NCBI GenBank assembly: GCA_028283625.1
Contig: JAPWKG010000008.1
Coordinates: 124,001 to 188,000 of the forward strand
Direction: 5' to 3'
From: Acidobacteriaceae bacterium
Lineage (GTDB): Bacteria; Acidobacteriota; Terriglobia; Terriglobales; Acidobacteriaceae
DNA: 64,000 nt
This document shows positions 8,502 to 44,848 of the stretch, piece by piece. The notes under the pieces are model-generated. The model was not told where the DNA came from. It did not search any database and was given only the letters and a program-made list of their open reading frames with translations. The position numbers and the translations under genes are program-made. Positions within the stretch are counted from its first letter, which is position 1. Every line of letters begins with the position of its first letter.

Positions 8502-11500
8502 TTACTGGATGGCGACGCTCACGGTGGTGGTGGTGGTGTAGCTGCCGTAGCTGGCGGTGACGGTTGCGGTGTAGTTCCCGGCACTGGTGAAGGTGTTTTT
8601 GGGAGCGCTGCCGCCGCAGCCGGTGAGGGTGGTGAGCCCGAGTGCGAGCATGACCACGGCTGTGAGTTGCACGATGCCCTTACGGCGGCGAAGCGCCAGG
8701 CCGCCGAGCAGCGCCAGGCTAAGCGCGCCCAGACGCCATCCGGTGAAGCCTGCAAAGCTCTGCGTCTGTGCCTGGGTGTGGGCGGTGGTGGAGGAGATGC
8801 TGAGCGTTGAGGTCGCGGTTCCTCCGGAGGTGAGCGAGACGCTGGTGGGCGACATCGCGCAGCTGGGGGCGGAGGTTGCGGTGGAGGACGAGAGCGCGCA
8901 ACTCAGGGTGACCGTGCCGGAGACACCGCTTTGTGCGGCGACGGTGATGGTGCTGGTGTTGCCGGTGGTGGCGCCGGAGGTGAACGAGAGTGAGGCGGGA
9001 GAGGCGCTGAGGGTGATCGGCGCGTTGACGGTGATGGCTACGTCCGCGGTCGGAGCCGGGCTGGTGGTGATGCCGCTGGTGGCTCCTGTGCCGGTGAGGT
9101 GCGCGTAGAAGTTGGAGACGCCAGCGTTGGCCGTGACGCTCAGGGTGCTGGTGGCGCTGCTGCCTGCCGCCAGCGTGACGCTAGTGGCCGAGCAGGAGCC
9201 AGCGCTGCTGAGAGCGCTTTGTCCGGTGCCGGAGGCCGATTGCGGCTGGCAGGCGAGGGAGACGGTGCCTGCGTAACCGTTGACGCTGGTGACGGTGAGT
9301 GTGGTGGTGGTGGCTGTGGTGGAGCCACCGATGACAGCGAGCGTGGTGGTCGCGGGCGTGATGGTGAAGCTGGGCGGCGTGAGGGTGAGGCTAACGGAGG
9401 GCGAGGTGACGACCTCTGTGCCGGAGGTGCCGGTCACGATGACCGAGACGGTGCCGCTCTTGCCGGCAACCGTGTTGATGGTGAGCACCGGAGTTGCCGA
9501 GCCGCCGGCGGTGAGCACGCTGCTGGCAGGGCTGACGGAGCAGGTGGCCATGGTGCTGTCGCTGGTGGAGCAGGTGTAGGCCACGGTGCCGGAGAACGAG
9601 GTGCTGGAGGCTACCGTGAGCAGATCGGTGACTGTGGTGCCGGCCAGCAGGGTGGAGCTTCCGGAGGGATAGCTGAGTGTGGCCGGTGTGATGGTGAAGG
9701 TGTTGTTGTTGACCGTGATCGTGAGATCGGCCGAGGTGGCGGTGGCAAAGTCGGAGTCGCCGGCGTAGATGGCGCGGAGCGTGTAAGTGCCCGCGGTGGC
9801 GAAGGTGTAGGAAAGCGTGGCGACGCCGCTGGAGAGGGTGCCGGTGCCGATGGAGGTCAGCGTGGTTCCGGAGACCGTGTAGAAGGTGACGGTGCCGGTA
9901 GCGGCGGTTCCGGAGCTGGTGCTGGGGCTGAGGGTTGCGGTCAGCGTGGTCGCGGAGCCGACGACGGCGACGTCGGAGCTGGCGGTCAGGGCGAGCGTAG
10001 TGGTGGTGGTGGAGTTGTTGGCGGCGGTGAGGAAGTTGCCGACGTCGAGCGAGCCAAGACCTGTGGCCATGTCATAGCCGGTCTGGAGGAGGTAGCCCGC
10101 GAGGCCGCCGCTGAGGCTGGTGGCGCTGGGGGTGGAGTTGTTGCACATGCTCGGCGTGGTGGCCACGCAGGTGGAGACGGCCGAGGTGGCGATGGTGGCG
10201 TCGTGGAAGACGCTGGAGGAAGAGGAGCCGTTGAAGAGGCCGTAGAGCAGCGGGTTGAAGTTGCCCTGACGGGAGCCGGTCTTCTGGGCAAGGAGGGCGG
10301 CGATGCCCGCCATGGAGGGCGAAGAGGCCGAGGTGCCACCGTAGAGCGCCGCGAAGCTGCCGGTGGAGCACTTGTTGCTGATGTCGGCCTGGCAGATCAG
10401 ATAGCCGTCGTAATCCGAGGCCGAGAAGGCGATGTCGGGGGTGTCACGCAGGCTATCGGCCGGAACGCCCGTGCCGGTTTGCCAGGTGGGTTTGGGAAGC
10501 AGGCCGGGGCCACCGCCTGTAGCCGAACCCTGATAAACGACCACGTTATTGCTGTTGGTATAGGTCGGTTCATTCCATGCGCCTTCCGGAATGTAGGAGA
10601 GAGCCGAAGCCTTGGTGGTGGAGTTGTTGGTGCTGCTCCAGTAGGTGCTGGGGCTGGAAGCGTCGGCGAACTCGGTGCCACCGACGCAGGTGACGTAGCC
10701 GCTCATGCAGAGAAGATTGGCAGCCTGAACCTGCGTGGCGGGAATGGTTTTGTAGTTACTGTTGCAGCCTGCGACTCCGTCATCTCCGGAGGAGTTGAAG
10801 ATGCTGATTCCCTGTGCGGTGGCTGTTTTGTAATAGCTTTCGTAGGCCTGAGCGTCGGTGACGGCGGTGGTGTCTGTGTCGCAGCCGCCGAAGCTCATGT
10901 TCACGGCGTTGTCGTTGAGGGTGCTGATCTCATACTGCAGGGCGGTAAAGATGCTGCTGTCGGAGAGGTCGCCGATGACCAGAAGGTTGACGGTGCTTTT
11001 GGGCGCTGTGCCGATGATGCGCTGGACGTCGAGGAGAGCTTCTCCTTCGCTGCCGTTGGTCCCGCTGCTGACGCCGGGGTCGTTCTTGGGGGTGACCAGA
11101 ATCTGGTTCACCGTGTTGGTGGGGAGTCCGAAGAGGGATTCGTAGGAGGAGATGTCCGAGGCGTAGATGCGGGAGTCAATGATGTTGCCGACCGAGGCGC
11201 CGGTGCCGTTGATGCCGCTGTTGATGCTGGCCGCGATGTCGTAAATGATGTTGAAGTCGCCTGGGGCCAACGCGTGGCTGTTGTCACTGAAGGTCGTGCT
11301 GGGCGAGATGGTGGTCGAGCTGGAGAGGGACGAGGCGCTGGAGGATTGTGCGCTCTGGTTGTATTGATAGGCCGTGGGCAGGGCGCGCACGTGCGCGTGC
11401 GAGACGCGGAGGTTCTGGCTGAGGCCGCTGACCGACTGGAGAATGCCGGTGAGTGCGGAGGGAATGCGCGGGGCCGAGGTGATCGAGTAGCGTGTGACGT

Positions 11501-14083: not shown

Positions 14084-14467
14084 CTACTCGGTGACGGCTT
14101 CGAGCCAGGTGACGACCTCGCCGTTTTCGTCGGCTTCCTGCACGGCGAGATGGGTCATGGGATGGCCGGGTGCGGCGCCGTGCCAGTGCTTTTCGCCGGG
14201 AGCAAACCAGACGGTGTCGCCGGGGACGGCCTGCTGGGTGGGTTCTCCCCAGCGGGCGTAGGCGCAGATGCCGCTGAGGATGTGAATCATTTGACCGCGG
14301 GGATGGGTGTGCCAGACCGTGCGGGCGGCGGAGGCGAAGGAGACCTTGGCCGAGCGCAGGGTAGGGGAGTGAGCGGGACCGAGCAGAGGCTGAAGGTAGA
14401 CCTCTCCGGTGAACCACTCCGCTGGCCCGCGGCTGGTGGCGCTGCCGAGTTCGCGAAACGTTTCCAT
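14084..14467 (-). CDS. small cupin, hydroxynitrile lyase (GtHNL)-like
   Basis: A 127-residue single-cupin protein starting METFRELGSATSRGPAEWFTG. Numbered from this ATG it has H53 and H55 in VWHTHPRGQ, Q59, H94 in GEKHWHG and H106 in MTHLAVQ. These are the positions I recall for metal and active-site residues of the manganese cupin hydroxynitrile lyase of Granulicella tundricola; A40, V42 and Q110 also match the wild-type residues later changed in engineered variants. Length and termini match. The start at 14467 is chosen because the longer frame reads through the divergent lhr start. Physiological substrate is unknown; HNL activity in such cupins may be incidental. Confidence 0.85.
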   Translation of the reverse strand: METFRELGSATSRGPAEWFTGEVYLQPLLGPAHSPTLRSAKVSFASAARTVWHTHPRGQMIHILSGICAYARWGEPTQQAVPGDTVWFAPGEKHWHGAAPGHPMTHLAVQEADENGEVVTWLEAVTE

Positions 14468-14540
14468 GAGATGGATGGTAGCGCGGCGGGGTGTTGGCCG
14501 GAGGCGAAGAGGCGGCGAATCGCAGGCTACAATCGAAGCT

Positions 14541-17500
14541 ATGCACGCAGAGCGCGATAGTTCGGCGTACAGCGCAGCGCTCCCTGAGACGCTGGCATGG
14601 GCGCATCCGGTAGTGCAGGAGTGGTTTGTGCGGCGCTTTGGCACGCCGACGGAGCCGCAGGTGGAAGGCTGGCCGGCGATTCTGCGGGGCGAGCCGGTGC
14701 TGATCTCTGCGCCGACGGGCTCGGGAAAGACGCTCTCGGCGTTTCTGGTCTGTATTGACAAGCTGCTGCGTGCGGCGCTGGACGGCTCGCTGATGCCGCA
14801 TACGCATGTGGTGTATGTGTCGCCGCTGAAGGCGCTGTCCAACGATGTGCAGAAGAATCTGGACGGTCCTCTGCGGGAGATCCGGGAGCTGGCGCTTGAG
14901 CGCGGCTACCTTTGCCCGGAGATTCGCACGGGCGTGCGCACGGGCGATACGTTGCAGAAAGAGCGTGTGGCGATGCTCAAAGCAGCCGCCTCATATTCTG
15001 GTGACGACGCCGGAGAGCCTGTACATTCTGCTGACGGCGGGCAAGTCGCGGGAGAACCTGCGACGGGTTTCGACGGTGATCGTCGATGAGATTCATGCGA
15101 TTGCGGATGACAAGCGCGGGGCGCATCTGGCGTTGAGCCTGGAGCGTCTGGATGCTCTGGTGCGGGGCGACAACCGGCTTTCTCCGGGGGCGATGCTGAC
15201 GGGGCAGGCGCGGGGGCCGCAGAGGATCGGGCTGAGCGCGACGCAGAATCCGATTGCGCTGGTAGCGGAGTTTTTGACCGGCGCGGGCGAGGGCGTACGC
15301 GGCGACGGTGGTGCAGGTGGGGCAGCGCCGGGAGCTGGATCTGGCAATCGAGGTACCGGGTACGGAGCTGGGCTCGATTACCTCGGTGGCGATGCGGGAG
15401 GAGATGTTCGGCAAGCTGGCGGAGCTGGCGATGCAGCATCGCTCGACGCTGGTGTTTGTGAACACGCGCGCGCTGGTGGAGCGGTTGAGCTTTGAGCTGG
15501 CGGAGAGGCTGGGCCCGGATGCTGTGGCCGCGCACCACGGATCGTTGTCGCGTGCGATGCGGCTGGATGCAGAGCAACGGCTGAAGAACGGCGAGATTCG
15601 CATCCTGGTGGCGACGGCGTCGCTGGAGCTGGGCATCGATATTGGGCATGTGGATCTGGTGTGCCAGGTGGCGACGACGCGCAACGTTGCGGTAGCGATG
15701 CAGCGAGTGGGGCGAGCGGGGCATTGGCGCGGTGCGGTGCCGAAGGGACGCTTCTTCGCTTTGACGCGCGACGACCTGATGGAGCAGGCGGCGTTGCTGC
15801 GCAAGATGAAGGCCGGAGAGCTGGATCGTCTGGAAGTTCCGGATGCTCCGCGCGATGTTCTGATGCAGCAGCTGGTGGCTTTGTGCGGGGCGGAGAGCTG
15901 GGACGAAGATGCGTTGTTTGCTCTGGTGCGGCGAGCGTATCCGTACCGAGAGCTGAGGCGGGAGGCGTTCGACGAGTTGTTGGCGCTGCTGCATAACGGC
16001 ATTGAGTGCTCGCGTGGCCGTTATGGCGCGTACCTGCTGCGGGACCGGGTGCAGAAACAGGTGCATGGGCGGCGGGGCTCGCGCATGATTGCCATCGCCA
16101 ACGGGGGCGCGATTCCGGATACGAGCCTGTTCAGCGTGATGCTGCAGCCGGAGAATGTGCAGATTGCCACGCTCGATGAACACTTCGCGGTGGACTCTTC
16201 GCCGGGCGATGTGGTGCAGCTGGGCAATGCGAGCTGGAGGATTCAGCGCATCGATCCGGCGGGCAAGGTGCTGGTGGAGGATGCGCAGGGAGCGCCGCCG
16301 AGTATTCCGTTCTGGGAGGGTGAGGCGCCGCAGCGGACCTCTGTGCTGAGCGACGGGGTGAGCGAGCTGCGTGAGGAGCTTGACCGCCGGACGCGCCGGA
16401 CAAAGCCGAGTGAGTGTGTGGCCTCGCACCCGGAGGTAGCGGAGTGCGTGGCGTGGCTGAAGCAGGAGTGCTTTGTGAACGACTCCGCAGCGCTGCAGAT
16501 GATTGCGTACGTTGTGGGCGGACGCGCGGTGCTGGGAGCGGTGCCGACCAAGCGAAGGATCGTGGCGGAGCGGTTTTTCGATGAAGGCGGAGGCCAACAG
16601 CTGATTCTGCATGCGCCGTTTGGCGGACGGTTGAACAAGGCCTGGGGGCTGGCGCTGCGCAAGCGTTTCTGCCGGGGCTTCAACTTCGAGCTACAGGCCG
16701 CGGCCACCGATAACGGCATCAACATCTCGTTGGCCGAGCAGCATAGCTTTCCTCTGGCCGAGGTGTTTCAGTTTCTGAGCGTGCATACGGTGCGGAATCT
16801 GCTGGAGCAGGCAGCGATTCCTTCGCCGCTGTTCAAGAATCGCTGGCGCTGGGCGGCGGGACGCTCGTTGCAGCTGCTGCGGATGCAGAAGGGCAAGCGC
16901 GTGGCGCCGCAGATTCAGCGCACGCGCTCGGAGGATCTGCTGGCCAGTGTGTTTCCTCATGCGAGTGCGTGCCCGGAGACGATGACGGGCGATATCGAGA
17001 TTCCGGATCATCCTCTGGTGAATGAGGTGATGCGCGACACGCTGAGCGAAGGCATGGACCTTGACGGCCTGGAAGAGCTGCTGCGCGCACTGGAGGCGGG
17101 TGAGATTGAGTGCGTGGCGGTGGATACGCCGGTGCCGTCTTTGTTTGCCCATGAGCTGGTGAACGCGATGCCGTATGCGTTTCTTGACCCGGAGGATGCG
17201 GCGGCACGGCGGACGCGTGCGGTTTCGCTGCGCCGGGCGCTGCCCGATAGCGTGGCCGAAGGTGCGGGCAGGCTGGACCGTGCGGCGATTGAAGCGGTGC
17301 GGGCGCAGCTGTGGCCGGATGTGCGCGATGAGCATGAGCTGCATGATCTGCTGCTGCAGGTGGTGATGCTGCCGGGGAGCTTTGTGCAGCAGGCCGGTGC
17401 TTCGTCGGACAGGAGAGTGCAGCACTGGCCGATTTACTTTGGCCGGCTGGTGCATGCGGGGCGCGCCTTTGAGGCGAAGATCGGCCAGGAGCGGGTGTGG

Positions 17501-19165
17501 ATTGCCGCGGAGCGGATGGCGGAGGCGCGCCTGCTGTGGCCGGAGGCGGGTTTGCCGGATCTGACGCTGGAGAACGATCGTCCGGCTTCGACGATTACGG
17601 GGACGGAGGATCGTCCGGCGCAGACGCTGGGCGCGCGCGATACGGCGACGCTGGCGGCGGCGCAGGGGTGGCTGCAGTTGCTGGGACCGGTGACGGCGCA
17701 GGAGCTGGGCGCGAAGCTGCAGCTGGCGGCGTCGTCCTTGCAGCAGGCGTTTTTGGCAATGGAGCTGCAGGGGCTGGCGATGCGCGGTGTCTTTGAGCGT
17801 CCGCGGCCCGGTGAGGATGAACCGTATGCGATGGAGTGGTGCGAGCGCAGGATTCTGCAGCGCATTCACCGGCTGACGCTGAAGGGTTTGCGCGAGAGCG
17901 TGGAGCCGGTGACAGCGCAGATGTTTTCTCGCTGGCTGCTGGAGTGGCAGCATGTGGCGCCGGGAGCGCAGCTGGAGGGTGAAGAAGGCGTGCTGGCGGT
18001 GCTGGAGCAGATGGAAGGCTTTGAGGCTCCGGCGGTGGAGTGGGAGCGTTCGATTCTTCCGCGTCGCGTGAAGGACTATGAGCCGCGCTTTCTGGACAAT
18101 CTGTGTCTGGCGGGCGTGGTGGGTTGGGGACGCTTGTCGCCGCATCCGGCGTGGACGGAGGGCGAAGGCGCGGCACCGCGCAGGGTTGTGCCGACGAGTG
18201 CGGCTCCCATTACGTTTTACCTGCGCGAGAGCGCGGAGTGGTTGCCGCAGGCGCTGGAGCAAAAGCGCGTGGACGAGGCGGTGCTGGGCGCGAGCCTGAG
18301 CGCGGAGGCGCAGCAGATGCGCCGGTTGTTGCGAGAGCGTGGAGCGTCGTTTACCGCGGAGCTGCAGCGGGAGAGCGGGCTTGCCAAGCAGGCGGTGCTG
18401 AGTGCGCTGTGGGAGCTGGCGACGGCGGGGGTGGCTTCGGCCGATGGCTTTGACCAGTTGCGCGCGATGATGGACCCGCGCCGGAAGTCAGTGGCCCTTG
18501 CGCAGACGCCGGTTGTGAGTGTGCGCAAGCGCGCTGCGGCGAGGACGACGACGGGACGCTGGTCTCTGCTGTATGACGCGGAGCCGGAGAGTGAGCCCGA
18601 GACCCGTCTGGAGCGGGCGAGCGAAGAGCAGAGAGCGAGGATGATTGCCCGGGCGCGGCGCGAGGAGGCGGCGCTGGAGGCGCAGGCGAGGGTGTTGCTG
18701 TGTCGTTATGGCGTGCTGTTTCGTGACCTGCTGGCGCGGGAGTCGAATGCGCCGAAGTGGAGGGATCTGGTGCCGGTGCTGCGGCGGTTGGAGGCTCGCG
18801 GCGAGGTGCGGGGTGGCCGCTTTGTGACCGGAGCGTTTGGTGAACAGTTTGCCGTGCCGGAGGTGGTAGAGGCGTTACGCGCGGCGCGGCGGCAGCATGG
18901 TGCGCGCGAGGGCGAAGAGGGCATTACGATTGCCGCGTGCGATGCGCTGAATCTGGTGGGGATTGTGGTTCCGGGAGAGCGTGAAGCCGCGGTGCCGGGG
19001 CGTGAGGTGGTGCTGGTGAACGGGTTGCCGCCGGAACGGGTGGCCGAGGCGGTCGCGGTGCTGAAGCCGAAGCGGCGTTCGCGCACGATGGCCGAGGTGG
19101 TCCGTGCGGATGTGGCCCGGGTTGTGCGCGCGGAAGCACAGGCGCAGCCGAGGTTGTTTGGATGA
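14541..19165 (+). pseudogene. lhr: lhr: large DEAD/DEAH helicase (Lhr family), interrupted by two frameshifts
   Basis: About 1540 codons, the normal size for Lhr, in three successive frames. Piece 1 (14541 to about 14980) has the Walker A APTGSGKT at residues 57-64. Piece 2 (about 14981-15290) holds [14 protein letters not shown] and the DEIH box ([13 protein letters not shown]). Piece 3 (about 15291-19165) has the rest of the helicase core (GIDIGHVDLV, QRVGRAGH) and the long Lhr C-terminus. Removing one A of the AAA at 14979-14981 restores LKQPPHIL; removing one base near 15279-15293 restores [12 protein letters not shown]. Lhr proteins are 3'-5' DNA/RNA-DNA helicases in repair. Everything else is intact, so recent mutation or sequencing error are both possible. 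Confidence 0.8.
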
Positions 19166-19367
19166 GTGAAGCGAAGAAGCCAGATGAGCACGCAGCGGTG
19201 CCGGAGTCGCGAGCAGCGTTTGACGCCTTCGAGCTGCTGGAGGGCGATCTGTACTGGGAGAACGGGCTGGTGGTGTTTACCGAGCAGTACCACCTGCGGC
19301 GCGGCTTTTGCTGCAACTCCGACTGCAGGCATTGCCCGTACCGGTAGCCCGGGCGGTGGGTGCGCCT
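19155..19367 (+). repeat. 213-bp direct repeat, copy 1
   Basis: Matches 21338-21550 with an offset of 2183 bp and three substitutions over 213 positions. It covers the last bases of lhr, the complete DUF5522 gene and 20 bases after it. Confidence 0.95.
19162..19347 (+). CDS. DUF5522 family small Cys-rich protein, copy 1
   Basis: A 61-residue protein with the C-terminal signature FCCNSDCRHCPYR, typical of DUF5522; four cysteines and a histidine suggest metal binding. The ATG overlaps the lhr stop (ATGA), and GAGG within the lhr 3' end provides the ribosome binding site. An identical protein is encoded at 21345-21530. This copy is the one in the natural-looking context (coupled to lhr). Function of the family is unknown to me. 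Confidence 0.85.
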   Translation: MSEAKKPDEHAAVPESRAAFDAFELLEGDLYWENGLVVFTEQYHLRRGFCCNSDCRHCPYR

Positions 19368-19485
19368 AGAGAAGGCCGAGTGCATGGCGCAAGGGATCTG
19401 ATCAAAGCGTGGATGGCGGCGATGGGGAAATGCCACGCTCCGCAGAGTGGCGTGCTGCCGTAGGAGAGCGTAGCCGTCACTGTAC

Positions 19486-19531
19486 GCTCTTTTCACGCAG
19501 GATCATGCCCTTCATCCCGCGTGAAAAGAGC
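19486..19531. terminator. 13-bp hairpin between DUF5522 copy 1 and the GH30 gene
   Basis: GCTCTTTTCACGC (19486-19498) pairs exactly with GCGTGAAAAGAGC (19519-19531) around a 20-base loop. It lies between convergent genes and probably terminates one or both; no long T run follows. Confidence 0.55.
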
Positions 19532-19574
19532 CTATGCAAGGGGAACCACGATGGTGGCAATGTGTGCTTTTGCT

Positions 19575-21062
19575 CTAAGGCTCATTGGAAGTTTTCACAA
19601 GGGTTGCCGTAGCGTGCGAGGAGAGTGCGAATCGTACAGATTTCGATGAATCCAGTTGAACGGATACGGTTCTCGTGTCGGTATTGGTGTTGTAGAGAAC
19701 GATCGCGATCGATCCCTCTGGATTCCGAAAAGCCTGTGCCCAGATACCATCGCCGTCCGACGTCTTGAGGCGGCGCGCACCCATGTGGACGAACTTGGAA
19801 AAATGGCCAAGCTCGTAATAGTTGAGAGTCATTTCATAGTGGCCAGAGGCCGGGTCTATCGTTACCAATCCCGTACACCTCTCGCACCCTACGCCCATTT
19901 TGGGGCCACCAGACGGATCCAATGCAAGGTTCCAAAGAACCATGCCGGAGGCGCCGTTCTTGAGTGCCACTAATGTCTTTTCGGTGGTATCACCCGCGAT
20001 GTAACCGCCAGGGCCGGTAGAGCATTCGGTGACATACATCGGACGATCAGGAAGAATCGTCCTCAGCTCAGCAAGCCCCGCAGCGAAAGTATCGATATCT
20101 TGATAACAATGCCAAGCCGTTGCACCCACTAATGGAAGCACTCTGGGATCATGAAATAGCGCCTTCGCATAGGCCGGATCTGCACTACTGGTATCCGCTG
20201 CGAGGATCACGGGATTTAGGTTCGCCTTGTGAAGAGCCGGAGCAAGATTCTCTACGAGAAATCGCGCCTCATCCTCAGGCGCAAGGTACATAGCTGAATA
20301 AGTGGCAGGGTCCTGATTCGGTTCGTTCTGAGCTGAAATGCCCCATATGTGCACGCTCTTTTTCTCATACGCCAGAAGAAACTTCACGAAATAATTTGCC
20401 AACGCCCCATACTGATTTTCAAGGAGCGTAGCGCGCTTGCCAGAGCCAAGCATGGATTGGTTGGTCTTCATCCATGCGGGTGGGCTCCATGGGTTAGCAA
20501 ATAATCGCATCTCCGGATTCATCTTCTGAGCTTCGCGTAATACGGGAAGAATATAAGCATTGTCATGACGTATAGAGAACTCAGGTAAAGCCTGGTCCTG
20601 AACGGTGTCTGCATAGGAGTATGTACTGGTCCGAGTAAAGTCAGACGATCCCATGGGAACCCGCATGAGAGAAAGATGTATCCCTTCTCTACGGTCAAAT
20701 AAGCTCTTCATCAGAACGACGCGACGTTGCTGTGGCAATGCATGAAGCAGCCATGCGGAAGTATCCGTAAACGCAGCTCCAAAACCTTCTATCGTCTGCA
20801 ACTCCTGCGACGTGTTTACCTGTACAAGAGACGCGCCTTCACCCTCTACTTGAAAGTTTTGTTCCTCTGCCAGGTGCTTGGTGAGATCCGGAGTCGTGAC
20901 CCAAAGTCGAAAGTCAGGCGGTTCGGGGGAGTTTGCAGCATGCGGTCCGGAAAGCCGGTATCCGGCAGCGGAAAGTCCAGTAGCAAGACCCAGCAGAGTG
21001 ATTGCTCGCGCGCAGGTGGACGCGATTCGGCCCATAGACGATTGCAACTGGGATATTCCCAT
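19575..21062 (-). CDS. GH30-family glycoside hydrolase, exported
   Basis: A 495-residue protein with an N-terminal hydrophobic export segment (about 18-34) and a full GH30 (glucosylceramidase/endo-1,6-beta-glucanase type) domain: EGFGAAFTD at 92-100, acid/base E247 in SAQNEP, nucleophile E346 in VTECST. A beta-rich C-terminal domain follows. Retaining hydrolysis of beta-glucosidic or related bonds outside the cytoplasm is expected; the exact substrate cannot be read. AGGAGATTC precedes the ATG. The sequence is visibly AT-richer than its neighbours and the gene is bracketed by 213-bp direct repeats, which suggests acquisition. Confidence 0.9.
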   Translation of the reverse strand: MGISQLQSSMGRIASTCARAITLLGLATGLSAAGYRLSGPHAANSPEPPDFRLWVTTPDLTKHLAEEQNFQVEGEGASLVQVNTSQELQTIEGFGAAFTDTSAWLLHALPQQRRVVLMKSLFDRREGIHLSLMRVPMGSSDFTRTSTYSYADTVQDQALPEFSIRHDNAYILPVLREAQKMNPEMRLFANPWSPPAWMKTNQSMLGSGKRATLLENQYGALANYFVKFLLAYEKKSVHIWGISAQNEPNQDPATYSAMYLAPEDEARFLVENLAPALHKANLNPVILAADTSSADPAYAKALFHDPRVLPLVGATAWHCYQDIDTFAAGLAELRTILPDRPMYVTECSTGPGGYIAGDTTEKTLVALKNGASGMVLWNLALDPSGGPKMGVGCERCTGLVTIDPASGHYEMTLNYYELGHFSKFVHMGARRLKTSDGDGIWAQAFRNPEGSIAIVLYNTNTDTRTVSVQLDSSKSVRFALSSHATATLVKTSNEP

Positions 21063-21337
21063 GAATCTCCTGTGTATCTGTTCGACTTATCTTCGTGTGA
21101 AGGGAAGCCCGTAAGTTTTTTCTATCCGCAAAATATTTGCATACCGATCCCATCAGTGCCAAGTTTCCAAAACCTCGGCTACAAAGTTTGAGGCCTTGCT
21201 GGGGAGTTTTATAGCGACTCTCCTGATTGGCATGAAAATGCCCTCTATGGGACTTACGCTCATCGTCAAAAAAACGAATAGCGATGCTGGGCAGAACGAA
21301 GAAATGTCCGAAGCACAAAATGTTCCTTCGCATGGTC

Positions 21338-21550
21338 TGTTTGGATGAGTGAAGCGAAGAAGCCAGATGAGCACGCAGCGGTGCCGGAGTCGCGAGCAGC
21401 GTTTGACGCCTTCGAGCTGCTGGAGGGCGATCTGTACTGGGAGAACGGACTGGTGGTGTTTACCGAGCAGTACCACCTGCGGCGCGGCTTTTGCTGCAAC
21501 TCCGACTGCCGGCATTGCCCGTACCGGTAGCGCGGGCGGTGGGTGCGCCT
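21338..21550 (+). repeat. 213-bp direct repeat, copy 2
   Basis: Copy of 19155-19367 with three substitutions. Two fall inside the 61-codon gene and are both synonymous (GGG/GGA, AGG/CGG); the third is just after the stop codon. Sequence homology ends abruptly on both sides. Confidence 0.95.
21345..21530 (+). CDS. DUF5522 family small Cys-rich protein, copy 2
   Basis: Encodes exactly the same 61 residues as the gene at 19162-19347. Unlike copy 1 it is not preceded by lhr: only TGTTTGG is shared upstream, so the GAGG ribosome binding site of copy 1 is lost and replaced by CATGGTC. It may be poorly translated. The two silent differences from copy 1 suggest either selection on both copies or arrival from a related strain. 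Confidence 0.75.
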   Translation: MSEAKKPDEHAAVPESRAAFDAFELLEGDLYWENGLVVFTEQYHLRRGFCCNSDCRHCPYR

Positions 21551-21659: not shown

Positions 21660-23849
21660 CTATGGTTTGGACGCTTCAGCCGGCGGTTTGGAAGCTTCTG
21701 CAGGCGCAGCCGCCGTGGCGGCTGGGGTGATGCGGATGGCCATGCGGGGGAAGCTAAAGCTGCCGCCTGCGTCGTCGATGAGGTTGACCTGGCAGATGTA
21801 GGTGCCGGGTTTGAGCTGCGTGGCGGGGACATCGAACTGGAAGGCGACGGCGTTGCGGTCGCCGATGTTGACGCGGTCGGCGGTGACGACGGGGGTTTCA
21901 TAGACCTTGGCCCCGTTGGACAGGAACTCGATGCTGGTGAGCACGTGGGCGGCGTCGCCTTCGCGGCGGCGGAGGCCGGGTGAGGGAGCGAGCGCGGCGG
22001 CGTTCTTGGGATGGGCCGGGTCGTAGAGCTCGTAGAGGAAGTACAGGTGTTGGTCCTGCCGGACGATGTGGGCGACGTTGGGTACCCACTCGACGCCGTC
22101 ACGCACGAGCAGCGAGGGGTTGTTGCGATCGCTGTTCGGGGTGCGCTGTGTGCTGAGCACGACGGAAGAGAGCTTGACGGGGAGCTTCTTGAGATCCGGT
22201 ACGTTGAGGTCGGTTTCAAAGGAACCCATGTTGCCGGTCTGGTTCTCACGGACGACGAACTTGACGTGATAGTGGCCGGGCGAGAGGACGAAGCCGGTGG
22301 AGTACTGGAGGTTACGGTGCGCGGCCTGCTGGGATTGGTTGACGGCGAGCTTGAGGGTATCGCGGACGTTGCCGAAGTCGACGCCCTTGGCGGAGCCTTC
22401 GCTGGCGGTGACCTGTCCCATGATGTCGAGGGTGGCTTTGTCGGTGTCGCGGGACTGGGTGAAGGGGATGGCTGAGCCGGGGACGATGAGCGAAACCGGG
22501 ATGTAGTAGCGGTTGTCGGCGGTGCGGAAGTAGAGCGCCTGCAGGTACAGCGGGACGTCGGTGGCGGGCAGGTCGGAGCGCATCTGCTCTTTGAGCGCGA
22601 GCTCGCGGTCCTCGGTGCGTTGGTGCTGGAAGTCGGAGGGAGCGTAGTAGCCGGGACGGTACTCGATCCTGAGATCTTTGCGGTTGACGGAGATGGAGAG
22701 GTGGCGGAAGGAGCCGTCTTTGCGCTGGTTGGTGGAGCGGAAGCCGAGGATGTAGTAGGCCTCGGTGTCGTGCTGGACCTGCTGGAAGGCGGGGGAGAAG
22801 TCGTTGGAGTCGAAGAAGGGCTTGCCGCCGGTGTCGATGGAGAGCGTGGAGAGGGTCTCCTGCGACTCGGCTTCGGAGTTGAGCTGCGATTGCATGGACG
22901 AGCCGGTGTAGGCGGCGGTTCCGCGCAGCGATCCGCTGCTGGCGGCTCCTACGGGAGGCAGCGCGCTGAGGCCGCGGGAGTCTACTGCGTAAATGGCGAG
23001 GTTGGCGCGGGCCGCGGCGTTGGTGGCTGCGCGGAGGCTGGCCTGATTTTCGATGCCGTTGCGGGAGAGTCCGCCGGAGAAGTAGAGCATGGACTTGCGT
23101 TGATCGACGCGCTCAAGGCTTTTGGCGATGGTGCGAATGGCGAGCAGCTCGCGGTCGGTGTTGAGGGAGTTGAACTCGGAGTCGTCTGCGGTGAAGGAGC
23201 TTGCGTCGTCTGCGGTGCCGTCGGAGGAGCCGTCGCCGCCGGGGGTGAAGCCTGAGCTGTCGTCGCCGTTGTAGCGGGCAAGAACGCGGAGGATGGCGGC
23301 TTTGTTGTTGGTGAAGTCCAGATCCATGGAGAGGGAGGTGGAGAGGGAGACCATGGCGACGAGGTCGGCGGGCTGCATCTGCTGGTTGACGTAGTGGGTG
23401 GCGGCGTCGACGGCGCGGTCGATGTCGTCGTCCTGCATGGAACTCATGTCAAAGAAGAGGACGATGAGGCGATGGTCTTTGAGCTGCTGGGGCGAGGCGG
23501 CGAAGTCGTTGTTGAGGATGTCCTGGACGGAGCGGCCGGAGGCGGTGCCTTTCTCGTTGAGCTGGGCGGCCTGGTCGACGTTCTGGTAGTCGAAGCTGCT
23601 GATGTGCTGCGGCTTCTTGTCTTCGGTGATGGTGAAGTCGGAGGCGTGGAGGCCTTTGACGACCTCGCCGGTTTTTTTGTCGCGCACGACGACGTTGGTC
23701 AGCACCATGTTGGTGGAGACCTTGAGGGTGTAGCCGGCAGTGGCCTGGGGCGCGGAGGGGGGCGCATCGGGCTGCTGGGCGGGCGCGGAGAGGCAGAGCA
23801 GGCCGGAGAGCGCTGCGGCGGTGAGTCGGGAGTAGAAACGATGCGTCAT
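21660..23849 (-). CDS. VWFA-related acidobacterial domain protein
   Basis: A 729-residue exported protein (signal peptide about 1-24). A Thr/Val-rich segment with VVRDKKTGEVVKGLHASDFTI precedes a von Willebrand A-type domain (about 115-300) beginning RLIVLFFDMSSM, where the metal-site motif DxSxS is degenerate (last Ser is Met). This architecture matches the VWFA-related domain described from Acidobacteria (TIGR03436). A C-terminal half of beta-rich sequence and an Ala/Pro-rich tail follow. It is the last gene of an operon behind a TonB-dependent receptor, 14 bases away, so a cell-surface adhesion or assembly role alongside that receptor is a reasonable inference. Confidence 0.85.
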   Translation of the reverse strand: MTHRFYSRLTAAALSGLLCLSAPAQQPDAPPSAPQATAGYTLKVSTNMVLTNVVVRDKKTGEVVKGLHASDFTITEDKKPQHISSFDYQNVDQAAQLNEKGTASGRSVQDILNNDFAASPQQLKDHRLIVLFFDMSSMQDDDIDRAVDAATHYVNQQMQPADLVAMVSLSTSLSMDLDFTNNKAAILRVLARYNGDDSSGFTPGGDGSSDGTADDASSFTADDSEFNSLNTDRELLAIRTIAKSLERVDQRKSMLYFSGGLSRNGIENQASLRAATNAAARANLAIYAVDSRGLSALPPVGAASSGSLRGTAAYTGSSMQSQLNSEAESQETLSTLSIDTGGKPFFDSNDFSPAFQQVQHDTEAYYILGFRSTNQRKDGSFRHLSISVNRKDLRIEYRPGYYAPSDFQHQRTEDRELALKEQMRSDLPATDVPLYLQALYFRTADNRYYIPVSLIVPGSAIPFTQSRDTDKATLDIMGQVTASEGSAKGVDFGNVRDTLKLAVNQSQQAAHRNLQYSTGFVLSPGHYHVKFVVRENQTGNMGSFETDLNVPDLKKLPVKLSSVVLSTQRTPNSDRNNPSLLVRDGVEWVPNVAHIVRQDQHLYFLYELYDPAHPKNAAALAPSPGLRRREGDAAHVLTSIEFLSNGAKVYETPVVTADRVNIGDRNAVAFQFDVPATQLKPGTYICQVNLIDDAGGSFSFPRMAIRITPAATAAAPAEASKPPAEASKP

Positions 23850-42976: not shown

Positions 42977-44848
42977 CTACTCTGACTTCTTCTTGTTGCG
43001 GGCCTTGATCTTGAACCAGATGGGGGAGCCGATGAACTTGAAGGCTCGCCGGACCTCGTTGGCAAGAAATCGCTCGTAGCTGAAGTGCAGCTTGACGTCG
43101 CGATCGGTAAAGAGCACGAAGGTGGGCGGAGCGACTGCGGCCTGCGTCATGTAATAAATTTTGACGCGCTTATTCATGGGCACGCTGGCGCGCTGGAAGT
43201 CGATGGCGTCGAGGAAGCGGTTCATGTTGCCGGTGGAGATGCGCTTGCGGCGCTCGCGGGCAACGAGCTCGACCTTCTTGAAGACCTGATCGATGTTGAG
43301 CTCCTCCATGGCGGAGATGAAGAGCAGGGGCGCGTACTCGAGGTACTTGAGCGAGTCACGGACCTGCTGTTCGTAGACCTTTTTGTCTGCAGGCGGCTTG
43401 CCGTCGTGGATGCGCATGCCGTCGGGACCGGTTTTGGTCATGGCATCCCACTTGTTGACGAGGATGATGACGGAGCGGCCGCTCTCATGCGCATAGCCGC
43501 CGATATTGGCGTCCAGCGCGGTGATGCCTTCGGTGGCGTCGATGACGAGCAGAGCGACGTCGGCGTCTTCCAGATGCTTGCGGCTCATGATGACCGAAAG
43601 CTTTTCGGCCATGAGCTTGGTTTTGCCCTTGCGGCGGATGCCTGCGGTGTCGATGAAGCGGAAGCTGTGGTTGTCGCGCTCGACGACCTCGTCGACGGCG
43701 TCGCGGGTGGTGCCGGCGATGGGGCTGACGATGGCGCGTTCGGTGCCGGTGAGGGCGTTGAGCAGGGTGCTCTTGCCGACGTTGGGGCGCCCGATGATGG
43801 CGATCTTGGTTTCGCGCTGGACGTGCTCGCCGTGGGACTTCAGCTTGCGTTCGCGCGGGGCGGATTCGGTGTCGTCCTCCTCGTCGCTGTCGTCGAGCAG
43901 CGGGCCCATGTCTTCGTCAAACTCCTGATCGAAGCCTTCTTCGTTTTCGCTGGGTTCTTCGGCGACGAACTCGGGTGGTAGGGCGGCCCAGACCTCGTCG
44001 AGCAGGTCACCGATACCGGAGTTGTGCTCGGCGGAGATGGGCTGCACGTTTTTGAAGCCGAGGGTGCGGAAGTTTTCCGCCGAGCTTTCCAGCTCAGCGG
44101 TATCCATCTTGTTGACGGCGAGGAAGAGCGGCTTTCCTCCGCGGAGCAGCAGGCGGGAGAGCTCGATGTCGGGCGCGGTAATCTCGGTGCGTCCGTCGAT
44201 GACCATGACGATGGCGTCGGCTTCTTCGAGGCCGACTTTGGCCTGGCGGAAGATTTCGGCGGGGATGAGAGCTTCGTCGTCGGGGATGACGCCGCCGGTG
44301 TCGACGAGGCGGACGGTGCGTCCGGCCCACTCGACCTCGCCGTAGATGCGGTCGCGGGTGATGCCGGGCTCGTCGCCGACGATGGAGCGGCGGGTGCCGG
44401 TGAGGCGGTTGAAGAGTGTGCTCTTGCCGACGTTGGGGCGGCCGCAGATGGCCACGAGCGGCATGCGGTCGGGGGTGTGGTGCCCGGTGTTGCTGGTGGC
44501 GAGCATCAGCTCGCTGGCGAGGTGCTCCAGCTCTCGGTCCTCGCGCTGGGCGTGAGAGGAGCCGGCGCCGCCGAGGGAGAACTTCTTCGGGCGGCCGACG
44601 ATGTACTTGTCTTCGTCCGACTGCGCGAGGCTGACCTTGCGTTCGAGCTCGGGCGAGCGCTTGGGAATGTGTGCGGCGGCCTGCTTGGCCGCGGTCTTGG
44701 CGGCGATGGTTTTGCGCTGCTTGGGGGCCGCACCGGCGATCTGCGCCCCGGTCTTGGCGCCTGCGCGCGGGGCCTTGCCCTGCTTGGGCCGCGTGGTGGC
44801 CTTGCGGTGCTTTTTGCCCAGTCGTTTCTGTTCGCGCTTCGGTGCCAT
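42977..44848 (-). CDS. der: ribosome biogenesis GTPase Der (EngA) with long N-terminal extension
   Basis: A 623-residue protein with two consecutive GTPase domains, P-loops GRPNVGKS at 136-143 and near 352, and a KH-like C-terminal domain ending KIKARNKKKSE. Der is needed for 50S assembly. Typical Der begins about eight residues before the first P-loop; here about 128 extra residues precede it, starting MAPKREQKRLGKKHRKATTR, Lys/Ala-rich and likely disordered. The linker between the G domains is strongly acidic (about 295-335). GAGGATTTCC before the ATG supports the long start. Basic arm and acidic linker could interact; that is speculation. Confidence 0.93.
   Translation of the reverse strand: MAPKREQKRLGKKHRKATTRPKQGKAPRAGAKTGAQIAGAAPKQRKTIAAKTAAKQAAAHIPKRSPELERKVSLAQSDEDKYIVGRPKKFSLGGAGSSHAQREDRELEHLASELMLATSNTGHHTPDRMPLVAICGRPNVGKSTLFNRLTGTRRSIVGDEPGITRDRIYGEVEWAGRTVRLVDTGGVIPDDEALIPAEIFRQAKVGLEEADAIVMVIDGRTEITAPDIELSRLLLRGGKPLFLAVNKMDTAELESSAENFRTLGFKNVQPISAEHNSGIGDLLDEVWAALPPEFVAEEPSENEEGFDQEFDEDMGPLLDDSDEEDDTESAPRERKLKSHGEHVQRETKIAIIGRPNVGKSTLLNALTGTERAIVSPIAGTTRDAVDEVVERDNHSFRFIDTAGIRRKGKTKLMAEKLSVIMSRKHLEDADVALLVIDATEGITALDANIGGYAHESGRSVIILVNKWDAMTKTGPDGMRIHDGKPPADKKVYEQQVRDSLKYLEYAPLLFISAMEELNIDQVFKKVELVARERRKRISTGNMNRFLDAIDFQRASVPMNKRVKIYYMTQAAVAPPTFVLFTDRDVKLHFSYERFLANEVRRAFKFIGSPIWFKIKARNKKKSE

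Follow-up and report, generated by a model that had tools for sequence, protein, structure and literature searches.

Introduction

Insertion of plasmid or other foreign DNA with a flanking duplication of the target is a known kind of event, and the sites used by Xer-type recombinases have an architecture of two 11-bp arms around a 6-bp spacer. We have analyzed a stretch of 64,000 nucleotides (hereafter the window) from the Acidobacteriaceae assembly GCA_028283625.1, designated G000 in our comparisons, in which two 213-bp direct repeats, each harboring a small gene of the DUF5522 family, bracket a gene for a glycoside hydrolase of family 30 (GH30); the contig that carries the repeats is designated C17. 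On balance, we think it probable that a plasmid-derived segment was captured here once, with duplication of 213 bp of the target, by way of illegitimate repair. The locus is a well-preserved fossil, probably of the capture of a plasmid-borne gene, in which the target duplication is unusually long; what is new here is that the cargo has the look of plasmid-derived DNA.

Repair by end joining offers a described way to make such duplications. According to one report, the segment between the nicks is duplicated in mouse embryonic stem cells when both protruding ends are filled in (PMC5730883), and another places conventional non-homologous end joining (NHEJ) among the functions enriched in Acidobacteria, with P = 0.05 (PMC7719229).

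Results

The repeat pair and its two DUF5522 copies

The repeat copies lie on the forward strand at 19155-19367 and 21338-21550, 2183 bp apart from start to start, and differ by three substitutions (19266 G/A, 19327 A/C and 19349 C/G), a divergence of 1.4%. The differences at 19266 and 19327 are coding and synonymous, and the two 61-residue DUF5522 products are identical. Comparison of the repeats and their translation thus bear out what a preliminary description of this DNA had reported on the size and offset of the copies, their three substitutions, their synonymous coding differences and their identical products. The two synonymous changes are spread over ~41 synonymous sites; that both of two would be synonymous has p ~0.05 in the absence of selection, which may be taken as weak evidence of constraint. 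Gene conversion between the copies could also make the repeats appear younger than their true age. As for the age order of the copies, the copy-1 codon at 19327 is common to the closest relatives, and the copy-2 base at 19349 is found in one of them.

Copy 1 of the DUF5522 gene (19162-19347, forward strand; PF17653, E 3.9e-18) occupies its native place after lhr, as supported by synteny, and its ATG overlaps the TGA of lhr as read from the sequence. The gene lhr itself (15308-19165, forward strand) is an open frame of 1285 codons for an Lhr helicase, matching the Pfam families DEAD_assoc, WH_Lhr and WH3/WH4_Lhr, with its N-terminus probably missing from the open frame. Copy 2 of the DUF5522 gene (21345-21530, forward strand) encodes the same protein, and to its right lies the native neighbor on that side, a gene for an acidobacterial VWA-domain protein (21660-23849, reverse strand; TIGR03436, E 8.2e-72). 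The placement of copy 1 in the natural lhr-DUF5522 overlap agrees with the preliminary description; repeat copy 2, however, retains the final 11 nt of lhr, stop codon included, and not the seven or so that had been stated. Copy 1 is preceded by GAGG with a spacing of 8 nt before the ATG, and this motif is situated just outside the repeat, whereas copy 2 has neither an upstream GAGG nor an overlap with full lhr. Because GAGG lies outside the repeat and is absent before copy 2, this copy is predicted to be, in all probability, poorly translated. The idea that the neighboring gene had been kept intact is therefore right for its reading frame and wrong for its context, in which GAGG and the full lhr overlap are lost from copy 2.

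A genome-wide search returned only these two repeat copies, and in a direct-repeat scan of C17 (192,240 bp, less 4,001 bp; at least 85% identity, at least 50 bp, less than 15 kb apart) the 213-bp pair was the sole direct repeat. No repeat-cargo-repeat arrangement like that of the window was present in C17 and 28 other loci (497,293 bp in total, N included); elsewhere the same scan gave 58-61-bp pairs in loci L072 and L081 and tandem-like repeats in L078. DUF5522 found no mention in the literature searched. At a distance, the window harbors a further direct repeat (43603-43801 and 44254-44452) of 199 nt with 71% identity, 651 nt apart.

Empty sites in relatives

Among the corresponding loci of 20 relatives, 19 have lhr and 19 the VWA gene; 18 show the complete order lhr-DUF5522-VWA, and lhr was found adjoining DUF5522 in 19 of the 20. 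The interval between the DUF5522 and VWA matches, measured in L062-L081 except L078, is a gap of 32 to 226 bp in five of 19 cases. The two relatives in which lhr identity over its full length is highest, G024 and G006 (79.5% and 80.0%), have gaps of only 32 and 60 bp. Since these closest relatives have short DUF5522-VWA gaps, we consider the GH30 cargo to be lineage-specific, and it most likely arose on the lineage of the source genome, judging from these sequence comparisons. The sequence is an insertion of foreign-looking DNA beside a duplicated 3' neighbor gene; this much of the preliminary description stands, including the empty sites with a single DUF5522 gene that it had proposed to look for, which we found with gaps down to 32 bp.

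The notion of an island family in the manner of attachment-site (att) islands fared differently. A search for DUF5522 over 398 genomes of the family returned a match in 227, with two matches, in the table printed, in G000 alone. Because G000 alone has two, the duplication is a one-off among the species sampled, with no DUF5522 island family seen. DUF5522 as a general integration site was accordingly rejected, there being no second copy in any other of the 227 genomes. A cassette swap between such repeats, which had been put forward as a neat mechanism, finds no support, as there is no other DUF5522 pair in these 227 genomes and no comparable repeat in the relatives' loci scanned, and the search for DUF5522-flanked cargo in other genomes ended with none among the 227.

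In the other 14 of the 19 measured relatives, the DUF5522-VWA interval is 1.0-3.2 kb long. Judged by eye, 11 of them contain a small VWA-like gene, a gene for a ~300-residue secreted protein, or both, and the remaining three differ; neither gene occurs at this place in the closest relatives of the window. We rejected a cargo hotspot with swapping genes, as the contents of the long intervals look like native neighbors in 11 of 14. DUF5522-like genes were also seen on six IMG/VR viral contigs (L211-L216), and on three of them (L214-L216) the genes following the DUF5522-like gene resemble, by eye, those of phage baseplate wedge proteins; lhr or VWA matches were found on none of the six.

A plasmid-gene remnant right of GH30

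To the right of GH30 lies the decayed, frameshifted 3' end (~49 codons; 21151-21297, forward strand) of a gene that elsewhere, mainly on small contigs, lies divergent from a MobA/MobL relaxase gene. In a family-wide DNA search, 21153-21286 matched a contig of genome G762 at 70%, next to a MobA/MobL-family relaxase gene. Searched as a 48-residue protein, the remnant was matched in eight of 300 family genomes, the source included, where E was 2e-7. In the window the remnant starts at codons for HQCQ, shifts frame twice and ends 40 bp before repeat copy 2; because the frame changes twice, we read the gene as dead from its sequence.

The intact relatives of the remnant comprise the C-terminus of a gene of 121-147 codons on contigs of 9.4, 14.0, 15.0, 15.1 and 17.2 kb, and on a further contig of 9.2 kb (L163) the plasmid gene is split over two frames. 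Pfam places MobA/MobL relaxases on L160, L161 and the G762 contig; on L164 it identifies RepA_C and a ParA-type gene. L165 has ends that overlap by 95 bp in a circle-like manner; in L161 a direct repeat (1-119 and 14371-14489) stops short of the contig end and so gives no proof of a circle. The 121-residue product matched no Pfam or NCBIfam model, and we assume, by eye, that it serves as a mobilization accessory. By DNA, the right flank of the cargo gave one 26-bp chance match only in PLSDB. Chromosomal remnants of the same plasmid gene were noticed in two other family genomes (L166 at ~8912-9064 and L167 at ~9201-9314), one with a stop codon, and no direct repeats of at least 40 bp occur in the surrounding 18 kb of either.

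A recombination-site-like palindrome left of GH30

On the other side of GH30 lies an imperfect palindrome (19483-19534, core 19495-19522) that resembles the Xer-like 11-6-11 site of plasmid tyrosine recombinases. In two runs against the plasmid contigs its best BLAST E values were 0.002 and 0.001, with the site on two contigs, where the matched sequences (L164, 2324-2351; L165, 9049-9076) have perfect 11-bp arms and a 6-bp spacer. The conserved core, TGATAA-TGTCCT-TTATCA, occurs on plasmids of two phyla. The cargo site departs from the plasmid form at six of 28 positions and all 206 control stretches of equal length at nine or more, a contrast that somewhat overstates the case, in that the site was noticed by its match, leaving the test partly dependent, and the controls are GC-richer than the cargo. 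As near-constant core positions are altered, we read the palindrome as likely the relic of a recombination site.

A loosened form of the pattern turned up in 23 of 250 family genomes, at 25 places in all, with 0 for the reversed control in the rows printed; the window's own match is by construction, the pattern having been drawn from it. Matches in L177, L178, L180 and L189, with 7-9 mismatches, were taken as chance. A plasmid tyrosine recombinase was encoded within the examined stretch in eight of the 25 site loci, and a homologue of this recombinase in 969 PLSDB plasmid records, most of them less than 60% identical. In five records picked from the 969 (L206-L210, from Granulicella, Polaromonas, Ancylobacter, Sphingobium and Lichenicola), the site stands upstream of the recombinase in all five, with 3 to 9 mismatches over 28 bases; the inner 18 bases are unchanged in four of the records and differ at a single base in the fifth. 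The source genome, which is 85% complete, gave two matches of 25-28% on another contig but nothing close to the plasmid recombinase. A second, better conserved site is present in the source genome (G000:C4:33104-33133; L193), with no recombinase within 1.5 kb.

No T run follows the hairpin formed by 19483-19534 in either direction, so it is not a usual intrinsic terminator; a terminator scan that allowed loops of 3-8 has no bearing on this hairpin, whose loop is 10.

The GH30 gene

The GH30 gene (19575-21062, reverse strand; PF02055, E 3.8e-56) is an intact frame of 495 codons. The GC content between the repeats is 0.52, as compared with 0.64 for the whole window, and at third codon positions it is 0.53 in GH30 vs. 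0.79-0.88 in lhr, DUF5522 and the VWA gene. The cargo is thus AT-richer, as had been noted, except for its first 115 bp following copy 1 (19368-19482; GC 0.626), for which a DNA search of its own genome gave no second match. The promoter that the preliminary description had ascribed to GH30 did not emerge from a sigma-70 scan of the region, which yielded two sites vs. 1.6 expected, neither of them upstream of the gene.

Within the genus, 20 of 28 genomes have a GH30 match, the source included (that of G003 being weak), and none other than its own exceeds 39% identity; among the matches listed from 396 sampled genomes of the phylum, none other exceeds 40%. Scanning GTDB genomes with six exact peptides from the protein gave four Streptomyces loci with 46-47% identity. 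In a 58-row tree the protein groups with the Streptomyces enzymes with support of 100/99, in a sample that is biased toward sharers of an exact peptide, the only relatives that the named collection could yield, and on a long branch of its own; by sequence it appears nearest to the Streptomyces enzymes among those found. PLSDB contains 27 records with GH30 matches, all below 60% identity and none above 36.6% among the 15 rows listed, one of which is a Granulicella tundricola plasmid (30.5%). No GH30 relative was found in viral contigs.

The best family model for this protein is the NCBIfam BT3312-type model, matching almost its whole length (E 6e-71), a likeness to the GH30 endo-beta-1,6-glucanase BT3312 that is tempered by a score of 239.5 bits, far under the cut-off of 700. 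The first match among PDB structures is 5ngk, filed as glucosylceramidase and presumably the Bacteroides enzyme BT3312. The protein has NEP at 246 and TEC at 345, which we take to be the acid/base and nucleophile motifs. It is perhaps beta-1,6-glucanase-like, its substrate being a guess.

Discussion

We surmise that the ancestral order at this locus was lhr-DUF5522-VWA and that a plasmid-derived segment, comprising the site relic, GH30 and the broken end of a mobilization-region gene, was inserted between DUF5522 and the VWA gene. The insertion would have duplicated 213 bp of the target, leaving one copy on each side, with the ends joined by illegitimate repair, either through fill-in of a long staggered break and Ku/LigD end joining or through a backward template switch. 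Copy 1 would have remained the expressed gene, with copy 2 as a passenger, and recombination between the repeats could in principle excise the insert and restore the ancestral order without a scar, although there is no sign that this has occurred. The plasmid origin of the cargo is likely, and that it arrived in a single event by illegitimate repair is what we infer. Plasmid backbone is represented in the insert by the remnant of the mobilization-region gene and likely also by the site relic. We prefer the repair route because the cargo has no integrase- or transposase-sized frame besides GH30 and no tested contig carries DUF5522, and because the host encodes Ku, scored above the cut-off in the source genome, with an adjoining open reading frame of 904 codons that we take to be LigD-like. 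Fill-in at protruding ends is, moreover, known to make direct duplications, albeit from mouse cells. By this measure, the host has the pair of proteins expected of NHEJ capture, LigD being presumed by name.

The main rival to the repair route is a single crossover of the Campbell type, in which a plasmid or other circle with a close strain's copy of DUF5522 would have recombined with the chromosomal gene to give repeat-plasmid-repeat, with most of the backbone lost later. Plasmid-like remnants on both sides of GH30 are in keeping with this, and 98.6% identity of the repeats fits a donor that belonged to the same species or a near one. DUF5522, however, was on none of 10 loci (six plasmid-gene contigs, two pieces of the G762 contig and two chromosomal loci) and gave one weak match in 72,556 PLSDB plasmid records, and at 2183 bp the unit falls short of the replicons seen, so that a later deletion sparing both repeats has to be assumed; we regard a single crossover as rather unlikely. 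A linear donor with the cargo directly left of DUF5522-VWA would yield a fitting product too, if it had recombined homologously on the right and illegitimately on the left, behind the resident DUF5522. Such homology-facilitated illegitimate recombination is described (PMC3240628) for naturally competent species and, at low frequency, for E. coli conjugation. As it needs a donor with the cargo directly upstream of DUF5522, of which there was none among the loci compared, we hold this route to be quite improbable.

An integrase that used DUF5522 as attachment site and carried along a replacement copy would likewise leave an insert immediately 3' of the gene and an intact copy beyond it, and recombinase genes exist in the genus. 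The overlap used by tyrosine recombinases is nevertheless far shorter than 213 bp, and the only recombination-like site is inside the cargo, not at its ends. Besides GH30 the cargo has no frame above 154 codons and hence no integrase, as the preliminary description had rightly said; GH30 matches glycoside hydrolase families only, and this statement rests on size for the smaller frames, which were not scanned for integrase. Together with the lack of a second DUF5522 in any other of the 227 genomes, these points leave the island scarcely credible. A transposon or insertion sequence does not fit either, with no transposase-sized frame besides GH30 and a duplication that is not short but 213 bp long. 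Of inverted repeats, those of at least 20 nt comprise only the internal palindrome. An artefact of assembly or strain mixture, merging a repeat-plus-cargo circle with an empty chromosome, would draw on a genome that is 84.8% complete in 31 contigs, but each of the two cargo-repeat junctions is unique sequence within a contig of 192 kb, and three sites distinguish the copies, so that neither junction can come from a collapsed repeat alone; we deem an artefact very unlikely.

Several points weigh against capture of plasmid DNA through repair as we propose it. Fill-in, template switch and single crossover all give the same product, and the data do not separate these routes. The remnant is only ~147 bp and ~50% identical at the protein level, PLSDB yielded nothing for the 121-residue gene, and none of the 10 loci examined, the contigs with the plasmid gene included, carries GH30; because of these two absences the plasmid reading rests on small contigs. 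In addition, the cargo site departs from the near-constant core at several positions, and its mismatch test is partly dependent, as said. The GC-rich 115 bp after copy 1 is not accounted for by this reading, and the incompleteness of the assembly (85% complete) counts here as well. The decay of the remnant, set against a repeat divergence of 1.4%, suggests either that the segment had decayed before insertion or that gene conversion equalises the repeats.

The locus is a single readable example of a route by which an acidobacterial chromosome may have acquired a glycoside hydrolase gene. It draws attention to a few mobilizable plasmids of Acidobacteria and to a recombinase site conserved on plasmids of two phyla, which could help trace other captured genes. 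A tempting but improbable reading is that Acidobacteria capture fragments of mobilizable plasmids via Ku/LigD repair of long staggered breaks, with repeat-cargo-repeat structures, in which a neighbor gene is duplicated, serving as a scarlessly reversible trial of genes that needs neither transposase nor integrase.

In comparison with known systems, the locus resembles att-site genomic islands in that the insertion follows the 3' end of a gene and an intact copy of this gene stands beyond it, and differs from them in its long repeat, its lack of an integrase-sized frame and the absence of any site reuse seen in relatives. With plasmid Xer/dif modules it shares a gene beside an 11-6-11 palindromic site on plasmid-type DNA; here, however, there is one degenerate site only and no close plasmid recombinase in the genome, and no matching second site was found in the cargo across GH30, where a very degenerate one would escape. 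The tandem duplications by NHEJ described in PMC5730883 were made in mouse embryonic stem cells, whereas here we have a bacterium and an insert between the copies. As compared with insertion with target duplication, the duplication here is 213 bp long and includes a whole small gene, with no transposase-sized frame in the cargo; the likeness to this class lies in the foreign segment between host copies, the empty sites in relatives and the plasmid remnants inside.

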